The notes beneath the pieces are model-generated. The model did not search any database. It was not told the DNA's origin and saw only the letters and a program-made list of their open reading frames with translations. Positions 20,581-23,294 of a stretch of 64,000 nt of DNA are shown here, piece after piece; position 1 is the first letter of the stretch; every line of letters begins with the position of its first letter. This stretch comes from Lachnospiraceae bacterium AC2028. Its GTDB lineage: Bacteria; Bacillota; Clostridia; Lachnospirales; Lachnospiraceae. The translations under genes and the position numbers were made by a program. The stretch spans positions 1-64,000 of the forward strand of contig JNJD01000007.1 of NCBI GenBank assembly GCA_000702685.1, in the 5' to 3' direction.

Positions 20581-21345
20581 TTACTGCTTGGCTGTCTCCT
20601 TGACAAGATCCGCATGGATGCCTGCTCCCTTGAGCACGGGGCTGATCTTTTTATATACAAGGAGTGTCAGAAGCGAATTCAGGCTTCCCTTGATAAGATT
20701 CAGGGGAGCAACACAGGCAAATACGAAACTGTAAATGCTGTTTCCGACGAAGGGATTGACCTCGCTGCCCATTGCAAAGATAACCTCAAGGGGAATTCCG
20801 TAAAGCTTGGCGAATGCAGGAAGCAGATATACCGCATTGAACACGGTTCCGAATATGGTGATGCATATCGTTCCGACCAGGCACGAAAGAGTCGCGGTCT
20901 TTCTGGTCTTACGTGCATAGTAGATTATCGATGCCGGAAGAATGAATGAACATCCGACACAGAAATTGGCAACCTCTCCGACAAATGCGGTCGAAGTTCC
21001 CTTCATGAAAAGCTTAAGAACGATCTTGATGAACTCAATGAGAACGCCTGCTGCCGGGCCGAACGCATATGCTCCGATGAGAACAGGGAGCTCACTCATA
21101 TCCAGCTTGTAGAATGTCGGCGCGAAAGGCATCGGGATCTCAAAGAGCATAAGGAACGCCGATACCGCGGATAATAGTCCGACGGACGCCACTCTTCTGG
21201 CGGCGGAAGTCTTGTCGGTCATGCCGTTTTTCTTCTGGATAAGCTTCTCGGCGATTACCGAACAAACAAACAGCCCTGCAATGATAAGGATAAAGCTTAC
21301 CACATACAGAGCATTCGATGCTACCTGGTTAAACAGGTCTTTCAT
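20581..21345 (-). CDS. ribU: Riboflavin ECF transporter substrate-binding subunit RibU
   Basis: RibU is the S component that binds riboflavin and docks with the shared ECF energising module. The segment PFAPTFYKLDMSELPVLIGAYAFGP (about residues 74-98) is the family hallmark, followed by GEVANFCVGCSFILPAS and about six hydrophobic helices. At 254 aa it is longer than usual because of an extra N-terminal helix (about 12-32). The FMN riboswitch directly upstream, with the Shine-Dalgarno GGAGG just beyond the aptamer, supports both substrate and regulation. No EcfA or EcfT genes are in the window. Confidence 0.94.
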   Translation of the reverse strand: MKDLFNQVASNALYVVSFILIIAGLFVCSVIAEKLIQKKNGMTDKTSAARRVASVGLLSAVSAFLMLFEIPMPFAPTFYKLDMSELPVLIGAYAFGPAAGVLIEFIKIVLKLFMKGTSTAFVGEVANFCVGCSFILPASIIYYARKTRKTATLSCLVGTICITIFGTVFNAVYLLPAFAKLYGIPLEVIFAMGSEVNPFVGNSIYSFVFACVAPLNLIKGSLNSLLTLLVYKKISPVLKGAGIHADLVKETAKQ

Positions 21346-21360
21346 ATAATATTCCTCCTT

Positions 21361-21517
21361 CTTTCATCCGGACTTGAGACCTTTCGGTCATTCACCGTTG
21401 GTACCGGAGTTTCACCGGTTCAGCCCGTCTTTGACGGGGTCGCGGACTTTACGAACTGCGCTCATATGCGCCGCTCCTTTACCGCCAGTAGGGAGTCACA
21501 CCCTGCCCTGAAGTCAA
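21361..21517 (-). ncRNA. FMN riboswitch (RFN element)
   Basis: The minus strand carries the conserved RFN parts in order: CTTCAGGGCAGGGTG, ACTCCCTACTGGCGGTAA, AGTCCGCGACCC, a variable hairpin, TGAACCGGTGAAACTCCGG, TACCAACGGT and the closing AGTCCGGATGAAAG. P1 is formed by GACTT and AAGTC at the two ends. The aptamer ends next to GAAGGAGG of ribU with no T-run hairpin in between. Control by hiding the ribosome binding site is therefore more likely than transcription termination. Confidence 0.97.
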
Positions 21518-21524
21518 CGAATGG

Positions 21525-21576
21525 ATTATAGTACATGTCCCCTTATATTGCAATAGTCCATAAATAATGATAAATT
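21525..21576. promoter_or_regulatory. Divergent promoter pair sharing one palindromic -35 box
   Basis: The self-complementary hexamer TTGCAA (21548-21553) can serve as -35 for both strands. Leftward, 17 bp separate it from a perfect TATAAT (21525-21530 on the minus strand), placing the start at the 5' end of the FMN aptamer. Rightward, 17 bp separate it from TAAATT (21571-21576), upstream of the small operon at 21606. The leftward element is strong and the rightward one weaker. Confidence 0.6.
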
Positions 21577-21605
21577 CAATGTATACAAAGACTTTGCGGT
21601 GAGAA

Positions 21606-21983
21606 ATGATGACAGGTGATTCGCCTTATAATAATTACAATCCCGACAGGGGAAGGCATTCCTTCGAAATTGCATCCCTTGTTATGAGCATCATCTCGAT
21701 GGTCCTGCTCTGTACCGGGATTCTGGCGATACCCTTCGGAGCTCTCGGGATCTTATTTGCGGTGCTCAGCCGCAAGGATGGGTCCCCCCTCGGAAAAGCA
21801 GCACTGACCGGGGTGATCATATCAGTTGTATCAATGGTTACCGGAGCTCTCATAACCGTCTATGCGATCTATACGTTAATGACCGATCCTTCGGTTCTTG
21901 AAGAAGTAAGTCAGATGTATGCACGTTACGGCATAGAAATGCCGACATATCCCACATTTTCTTCGAAAGGAGGCTCATTATGA
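21606..21983 (+). CDS. DUF4190-like small membrane protein
   Basis: A 125-residue protein with a polar N-terminus (SPYNNYNPDRGRH) and two transmembrane helices (about 21-52 and 66-93) joined by a short basic loop (SRKDGSPLGKAALTG). The two-helix pattern with GALGILFAVLS...GKAALTGVIISVVSMV is reminiscent of DUF4190-type proteins of unknown function. Two adjacent ATG codons follow GGTGAG; either may start. Its stop overlaps the start of the HExxH protein (ATGA). Confidence 0.68.
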   Translation: MMTGDSPYNNYNPDRGRHSFEIASLVMSIISMVLLCTGILAIPFGALGILFAVLSRKDGSPLGKAALTGVIISVVSMVTGALITVYAIYTLMTDPSVLEEVSQMYARYGIEMPTYPTFSSKGGSL

Positions 21984-22471
21984 ATCTGTCCGTAAATTCA
22001 ATAGCGGAACGCATTCCCGGTTACAGTGAGTCTCAGGTAAGAAGGATTGCGGGTCCCACAGTCACTCCTATGGAAGAATCGGCTCTTAAGACCGGAAATC
22101 CCGGCAGAGTCAATAAAGCGGAGTGCCAGACATGTAAACAGAGAAAATATCAGGACGGCTCGGATGAAAACGTATCATTCAAGACCGCTCAGCATATGTC
22201 CCCTTCCGAAGCCGGAACGAGAGTCCGTGCCCACGAGCAGGAGCATGTTTCCAATGCATTCTCCAAAGCTTCCGAGAGCGGCGGCAAAGTTCTCCAGGCA
22301 TCCGTATCGATACATACGGCCATCTGCCCCGAGTGCGGACGCACATATATCTCCGGAGGAACGACAACTACCAAGATCAAATACCCTTCGGAAAACAATC
22401 CTTATCAGAAGAATATGAAGAACCTGCACAAACAGGCCACAGAGGGAATGAATTTCGATGCAGCAGTCTAA
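21980..22471 (+). CDS. Small putative zinc metallopeptidase (HExxH, SprA-related-like)
   Basis: A soluble 163-residue protein with a perfect HExxH motif, H85-E-Q-E-H89, in the context RVRAHEQEHVSNAF. Two cysteine pairs, C49-x2-C52 (ECQTCKQRKYQDGSDE) and C116-x2-C119 (AICPECG), could bind a structural metal. The KYQDGSDE...SFKT...AHEQEHV layout resembles the SprA-related family of putative metalloproteases. No signal peptide is present, so it is probably cytosolic. It overlaps its upstream neighbour by 4 bp and its downstream membrane-protein neighbour by 14 bp, which suggests a shared process. Peptidase activity is inferred from the motif only. Confidence 0.62.
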   Translation: MNLSVNSIAERIPGYSESQVRRIAGPTVTPMEESALKTGNPGRVNKAECQTCKQRKYQDGSDENVSFKTAQHMSPSEAGTRVRAHEQEHVSNAFSKASESGGKVLQASVSIHTAICPECGRTYISGGTTTTKIKYPSENNPYQKNMKNLHKQATEGMNFDAAV

Positions 22472-23225
22472 GTACCGTTCATCCGGTGAACTTAAAACCC
22501 GGGCACTTTCTGTAATGGCAGGCAGATACGGGGGAGCCGTAATGATGACTCTCTCGTATTTTATTTGGATATATCTTATCTCTTATGCGGGAAGCATTCT
22601 TTCCTCGGTCATATTGAAGATCCCCTATTTTTCATCGGTCACTTCCGATCCGGCGGCAGGCATCATCTTTTCCGTCATCTCCGCACTGATCACGATGTTC
22701 CTCGGTGTCATCGCAGAGATGTTCACCTGTGGGATCTGTCTGTACTACCTGAACATATCCACGGGACGTGACGCCCAGACTGCCGATATCTTCAGGGGGT
22801 TCCGCGAGAATCCGTCCGAAGTGTTCAAGGTTGCGGCATTTATACTGAGTCCCTCCCTTATCCTGTCGATCCCCGAGAATATCGTATCGGAGCTCTATAT
22901 GCAGACTTCCGATCCGAAATGGCTTTATCTGTCACTTGCCTTCTTTGGACTTGCTGCACTCGGAACCCTTTATGTACATCTGACATACGGCATCGCTTTC
23001 TTCGTCATGCTGGATTTCCCCTCATATACCGCAGGCCGCGTAATCCGGATAGCGAGACAGAAAATGACGGGAAACAGAATGAGACTCTTTATCCTGGATC
23101 TTCTTTTCATTCCGATGATAATCCTCGGGGTCCTTTCATTCGGCATAGGACTTGTATGGGTCTATCCCGTCATCAACGAAAGCAGGACTCTTTTCTTCCT
23201 GAATCTGATGAACCCGGATGCCTGA
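22458..23225 (+). CDS. DUF975-type multi-pass membrane protein
   Basis: The 255-residue protein has about six hydrophobic segments. It starts with a basic amphipathic lead (SSGELKTRALSVMAGRYGGA) and ends with a helical pair containing SFGIGLVWVYPVINESRTLFFLNL. That lead and ending match the DUF975 family of unknown function, common in Clostridia. The first 14 bp overlap the HExxH gene. The middle segment RIARQKMTGNRMRLFILDLLF is also characteristic. Confidence 0.78.
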   Translation: MQQSKYRSSGELKTRALSVMAGRYGGAVMMTLSYFIWIYLISYAGSILSSVILKIPYFSSVTSDPAAGIIFSVISALITMFLGVIAEMFTCGICLYYLNISTGRDAQTADIFRGFRENPSEVFKVAAFILSPSLILSIPENIVSELYMQTSDPKWLYLSLAFFGLAALGTLYVHLTYGIAFFVMLDFPSYTAGRVIRIARQKMTGNRMRLFILDLLFIPMIILGVLSFGIGLVWVYPVINESRTLFFLNLMNPDA

Positions 23226-23272: not shown

Positions 23273-23294
23273 AACCCGGCCGCCCGGCCGGGTT
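23273..23294. terminator. Bidirectional terminator between convergent genes
   Basis: A perfect 9-bp stem (AACCCGGCC / GGCCGGGTT, loop GCCC) has A-run and T-run flanks on opposite sides. It lies between the DUF975 gene and the convergent HD-GYP gene and can serve both. Confidence 0.9.

Follow-up and report, generated by a model that had tools for sequence, protein, structure and literature searches.

A palindromic -35 hexamer shared by two predicted divergent promoters between an FMN riboswitch-ribU unit and a three-gene operon

Can a single -35 hexamer serve two promoters that face away from each other, and would such an arrangement tie the two transcription units together? The question is raised by a site between ribU (minus strand) and a three-gene operon (plus strand) of Lachnospiraceae bacterium AC2028, located in the window that we analyzed (a stretch of DNA of 64,000 nucleotides, contig JNJD01000007.1, positions 1 to 64,000). 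Read on the plus strand, ATTATA, 17 bases, TTGCAA, 17 bases, and TAAATT follow one another over 52 bases. Positions 21525-21576 are, we consider, likely to form one compact two-way promoter of the housekeeping (sigma-A) type, a reading that we set out below together with its rivals.

Layout of the element and its flanking genes

The features of the region are collected in Table 1. According to the original prediction, TTGCAA is self-complementary and lies 17 bp from a -10 box on each side, and direct reading of the letters shows this to be correct to the base. The extended -10 TG at 21568-21569 was absent from that description. At bacterial promoters, sigma region 4 docks on the -35 and region 2 engages the -10 of that side. 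In the leftward direction, TTGCAA-17-TATAAT carries 10 of the 12 consensus bases and was listed by a simple promoter scanner, while the hexamers of the rightward TTGCAA-14-TGaTAAATT carry 8 of 12 (4/6 each) and remained below the threshold of the scanner, which did not list them. The form expected of sigma-A (sigma-70 type) promoters was found in both directions: to the left as two hexamers ca. 17 bp apart and to the right as a -35 with, at ca. 17 bp, a -10 of the extended kind. The consensus sequences of SigD, SigF, and SigH do not appear to fit the element.

Promoter-like sites as such were not enriched, the scanner listing 5 versus 5.7 ± 2.7 in shuffled sequences. The two-sided palindromic element was found once in the real window and in none of 60 dinucleotide-preserving shuffles, a test that called for a palindromic hexamer with at least 4/6 matches, flanked to the left and to the right by a -10 box 17 bp away (matches of the two -10 boxes adding up to at least 10, with at least 4 each) and whose thresholds were chosen after the site was known. 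For the predicted element, conservation in 16/16 divergent loci (see below) is stronger evidence than this shuffle test.

Table 1. Features of the divergent region and of a second element of the same kind
Feature	Coordinates	Strand	Remarks
ribU-like ECF transporter S component	20581..21345	-	PF12822, E 2.1e-30
FMN riboswitch aptamer, leftward leader	21352..21519	-	RF00050, 79.6 bits vs gathering score 66.2
Leftward -10 box TATAAT (ribU direction)	21525..21530	-	Plus-strand ATTATA; scanner match 10/12
Leftward 17-bp spacer	21531..21547	-	Ungapped in 16/16
Palindromic core TATTGCAATA	21546..21555	.	Perfect 10-bp palindrome, center of divergent region
Invariant block TATTGCAATAG around shared -35	21546..21556	.	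11/11 columns invariant, 16 genomes
Shared -35 hexamer TTGCAA, palindromic	21548..21553	.	Own reverse complement; TTG to both strands
Rightward 17-bp spacer	21554..21570	+	21557-21562 free, 21563-21570 = conserved AATAATGA
Extended -10 TG, rightward promoter	21568..21569	+	TG in 16/16
Rightward -10 box TAAATT (operon direction)	21571..21576	+	TAAATT 15, TAGATT 1 of 16
ORF1, small membrane protein	21606..21983	+	No family above its cutoff
ORF2, HEQEH (HExxH) protein with CPECG motif	21980..22471	+	No family above its cutoff
ORF3, DUF975 membrane protein	22458..23225	+	PF06161, E 3e-15
Terminator-like hairpin, operon end	23273..23294	+	Sequence scan
Second shared -35 element, window's own genome	G000:C7:75356-75407 (L191:3357-3408)		TATAAT both sides

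The original prediction placed an FMN riboswitch-ribU unit to the left and a three-gene HExxH operon to the right, and the FMN riboswitch was confirmed. Leftward, the aptamer scored above the RF00050 gathering score and the protein matched the S-component family PF12822; its riboflavin specificity is suggested by the FMN riboswitch. The aptamer match stops next to the GGAGG of the ribosome-binding site, just ahead of the ATG, and this position makes translational control by the riboswitch probable. The RNA fold of the leader, with a z score of -0.91, was not informative. ribU is present in 29 of the 31 genomes of the genus. In one genome of the genus (G010; L007/L068), the promoter and the FMN riboswitch are followed not by ribU but by a distant S component, 24 to 26% identical, whose match contains one TAA.

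Rightward, the reading frames of ORF1, ORF2, and ORF3 overlap, and all of them end before the terminator-like hairpin. Neither ORF1 nor ORF2 had a Pfam or NCBIfam model above its cutoff. Two adjacent ATGs occur at 21606-21611, the alignment of relatives favoring the second; the start of ORF1 is probably the ATG at 21609, the one conserved in relatives. Counting that of the window, 37 of 59 genomes have the ORF2 protein, which carries HEQEH. ORF2, with its HEQEH and CPECG motifs, is common across Lachnospiraceae, 576 of 597 stretches with the pattern encoding relatives.

Conservation of the element and its unshared counterparts

Of the 31 genomes of the genus, 16 have ribU and ORF1 as divergent neighbors (with a different S component in G010). 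We aligned these 16 loci, leaving out L001, in which the locus of the window is present a second time, as well as the non-divergent loci. The 52 bases align without a gap in all 16, so that both 17-bp spacings are kept, and TTGCAA, TG, and all 11 bases of TATTGCAATAG are invariant. Five of the six columns are invariant in each -10 box, the leftward one reading TATAAT in 13 loci, TACAAT in 2, and TAAAAT in 1. Mean pairwise identity was 0.47 over positions 21536-21545 in the left spacer, 0.40 over the six free positions in the right one (21557-21562), and 0.51 over the rightward leader, while it reached 0.94 in AATAATGA (21563-21570) and 0.98 in TAAATT. Given that the predicted promoter elements are kept and the free spacer drifts, it is on these predicted elements that the constraint falls. 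There was time enough for drift, to judge from the flanking proteins, which are 45 to 89% identical to those of the window in these genomes, with the exception of the S component of G010 (24%). The 16 divergent loci fall into a single group with one change of state in a protein tree built from 33 rows, although with weak support (59/66), and this is most simply explained by one ancestral origin that was maintained, not by 16 independent events.

The invariant bases go beyond the hexamer, with TA on each side of it, the G that follows, and AATAA in the right spacer, and thereby exceed what a minimal promoter needs. Along positions 21563-21576, the non-consensus TAAATT is conserved rather than drifting toward TATAAT, a constraint in excess of the need of an ordinary extended -10.

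About half of the genus keeps ribU and the operon apart, which provides unshared versions of the same two units. At the 12 non-divergent ribU loci with an FMN riboswitch, the best -35 reads TTGACA in 6, TTGACG in 3, and TTGACT, TTGATT, and TTGCAT/CTTGCA in 1 each, and TTGCAA in none (0/12). This set omits L066, whose stretch lacks an FMN riboswitch, and L068, which is the same locus as L007. For the operon, 15 non-divergent loci were available, 14 of the genus and 1 of another genus; L027, L034, L036, L037, and L038 (no ORF1 match) and L035 (cut near the contig end) were omitted, and for L025 and L030, without an ORF1 match, the element scan helped to place the examined stretch. In 13 of the 15, an extended -10 (TG-n-TAnnnT) is preceded by a TTG-type -35, such a pair not being found in L031 and L033. 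The -35 of these 13 reads TTGATA in 5, TTGCTA and TTGTGT in 2 each, and TTGACC, TTGATT, TTGTCC, and TTGCCA in 1 each, at 17 bp from the extended -10 in 10 loci and 18 bp in 3. TTGCAA was again not seen (0/13), under a scoring that leans to TTGACA but in which TTGCAA with a good -10 would still have ranked first in the absence of a better box.

At the non-divergent loci, each unit thus has a predicted promoter of its own, and that of the operon has its extended -10 in the unshared state too. Palindromic TTGCAA goes with sharing and, across the loci compared, is seen only in the shared state. In this respect the original prediction, which had posited divergent promoters on one palindromic -35, stands: the arrangement is kept in 16/16 divergent loci, with TTGCAA only where the hexamer is shared. 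The shared and unshared versions within one genus also offer a ready test of how sharing a -35 affects promoter evolution and expression.

Recurrence of the geometry in the genus and in Clostridia

Using a degenerate pattern of the whole element, we obtained 31 matches in 21 of the 31 genus genomes and none with the control pattern. Sixteen of the matches are the present locus, 10 belong to a second locus, and 5 are others (3 apparently alike), only 1 of these 5 having ORFs of at least 80 amino acids that start on both sides. The second locus occurs in the window's own genome as well, on contig 7, 11 kb past the end of the window, as a perfect copy of the 17/17 geometry. It is flanked by divergent genes for an ABC transporter ATPase-like and a zinc-ribbon-like protein, labels that were given from the sequence and not from a family search. 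The second element is free of mismatches in 10 of the 11 genomes that have both flanking genes and is absent in G010.

Shorter parts of the element were also searched. A dispersed regulon operator was considered and rejected, TATTGCAATAG being no commoner elsewhere than its control. The only other TATTGCAATAG of the genome lies at G000:C6:40761-40771 (L192), where one strand reads TTGCAA-17-TATATT, resembling a one-way promoter. A looser motif of the operon promoter, with a gap two bases too short, gave 4 sites versus 5 for its control in the genome and loci scanned and carries no information.

We also counted the pattern in 391 Clostridia genomes with one mismatch allowed; related genomes were included, so that the counts are uncorrected for kinship. 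There were 148 sites at the 17/17 spacing, compared with 153 at 17/23 (76.5 per orientation), 129 at 17/13 (64.5 per orientation), and 18 at 23/23. These mis-spaced patterns served as controls in place of the reversed pattern, whose far larger excess was set aside, its middle word AACGTT being probably rare in AT-rich genomes. In these 391 genomes, a correctly spaced second box occurs ca. 1.9 to 2.3 times as often as a mis-spaced one, and a bootstrap over genomes placed the ratio of 17/17 to 17/23 at 1.5 to 2.5. The excess at 17/17 in Clostridia is thus genuine, though of moderate size; with a two-fold excess, chance would account for the second box at about half of the 17/17 sites. A multiplicative estimate (76.5 squared over 18, ca. 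325) lies above the observed 148 and speaks against a very large excess, but it was not relied on, base composition differing widely between genomes. In a check of flanking ORFs that took in 20 of the 148 sites at 17/17 and 17 of the 18 at 23/23, 8/20 versus 3/17 lay between divergent ORFs of at least 80 amino acids, and 2/20 versus 6/17 lay inside an ORF.

It is possible, although we would stop short of calling it probable, that the shared palindromic -35 at 17/17 spacing represents a recurrent and selectively maintained class of Clostridia promoters, distinct from those with a shared -10 and imposing either/or initiation at many divergent pairs; the present locus and the ABC-ATPase/zinc-ribbon pair would be two conserved examples. 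If the class proves regular, some divergent pairs of Clostridia would have coupled initiation that is hidden from annotation, and a search with one simple pattern (-10, 17, TTGCAA, 17, -10) could reveal them.

Interpretation and comparison with known promoters

We infer activity in both directions, the start sites, and mutual exclusion from the arrangement of the bases. The palindrome would offer TTG to both strands, so that sigma region 4 could dock either way round. Facing left, polymerase would melt TATAAT and start near 21518, producing the FMN-riboswitch/ribU RNA; facing right, it would melt the extended -10 TGaTAAATT and start near 21583, producing the ORF1-ORF2-ORF3 RNA. The geometry of one common -35 suggests that two polymerases would exclude each other: with room for one only, initiation would be either/or, and the balance would be set by the two -10 boxes.

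Other readings of the same bases have to be weighed against this two-way promoter. We regard it as very unlikely that TATTGCAATA serves chiefly as an operator, bound by a dimeric regulator of both units, with its role as a -35 being secondary. Such an operator would agree with a perfect 10-bp palindrome in the middle of the divergent region and with an invariant block (11/11) that extends past the hexamer, but it has no need of exact 17-bp distances to both -10 boxes in 16/16 loci. In addition, TATTGCAATAG has 64 matches on both strands of 31 genomes, 16 of which are this locus, and its reversed-pattern control has 53. Even when up to 3 mismatches are allowed, the genome contains the longer element just once, and the seven flanking ORFs that were tested include no DNA-binding regulator family. 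In another reading, TTGCAA is used by the leftward ribU promoter only, the operon is transcribed from its extended -10 without a -35 or from a different promoter, and the sharing is a by-product. This would agree with a rightward -35/-10 pair that, at only 8/12, is under the scanner threshold, and with the ability of an extended -10 to function when the -35 is poor or missing. However, non-divergent operon promoters also place a TTG-type box 17 bp (10 loci) or 18 bp (3 loci) from the extended -10, TTG and CAA are both invariant in the divergent clade, and nothing would keep the -35 of a promoter used leftward only from changing to TTGACA, as in 6 of the 12 non-divergent ribU loci. We therefore consider this by-product scenario highly improbable.

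A selected either/or switch, in which the shared -35 ties operon expression to ribU expression, appears unlikely to us. Sharing is kept across the clade and recurs at a second divergent pair, and a study of E. coli bidirectional promoters describes interference, with strong activation in one direction repressing the opposite one (PMC12825309). On the other hand, according to the same study, the basal activity of all five bidirectional promoters tested was too low for competition (PMC12825309). Moreover, the two units have no known functional connection, and they stand apart in about half of the genus. The FMN riboswitch acts on RNA after initiation, and FMN would therefore not be expected to change promoter occupancy or choice. 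The further suggestion of the original prediction, that the operon could be tied to ribU promoter use, is not supported, in view of the post-initiation action of the riboswitch and the low basal activity in E. coli. The two-way sigma-A promoter probably persists mainly because a change of the hexamer by either gene harms the other, and a regulatory coupling of the two units is possible.

It is a familiar situation in general that the -35 regions of divergent genes overlap. For bacterial bidirectional promoters, a symmetrical -10 common to both directions was reportedly described by Warman et al. 2021. Symmetry-based two-way promoters have been described mainly for shared -10 elements; a shared palindromic -35 was not found described in our literature coverage, which leaves most subscription papers outside, and older cases may exist. 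The FMN riboswitch (RFN element), an RF00050 aptamer leading an ECF S-component gene, is ordinary save for its promoter. In two papers, bidirectional promoters are defined by a shared -10 with divergent starts 7 to 25 bp apart (PMC10268837, PMC12825309). The element of the window resembles that class in its divergent transcription and in having one sequence-symmetric core element that serves both polymerase orientations with mutually exclusive binding, which is predicted here. It falls outside the definition in that the common element is the -35, the -10 boxes are separate and 40 bp apart, and the predicted starts lie ca. 65 bp apart. Another point of comparison is Pc/Pr of pLS20, which are likewise overlapping divergent sigma-A promoters, in a Gram-positive host (PMC4207663). 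There, in the reading favored by the authors, the -10 of each promoter falls on the -35 of its partner; the balance is set by a regulator and a DNA loop (PMC4207663), while the element of the window shares only the -35 and has no evident regulator. The shared palindromic -35 is a geometry different from both the shared -10 and the pLS20 forms described.
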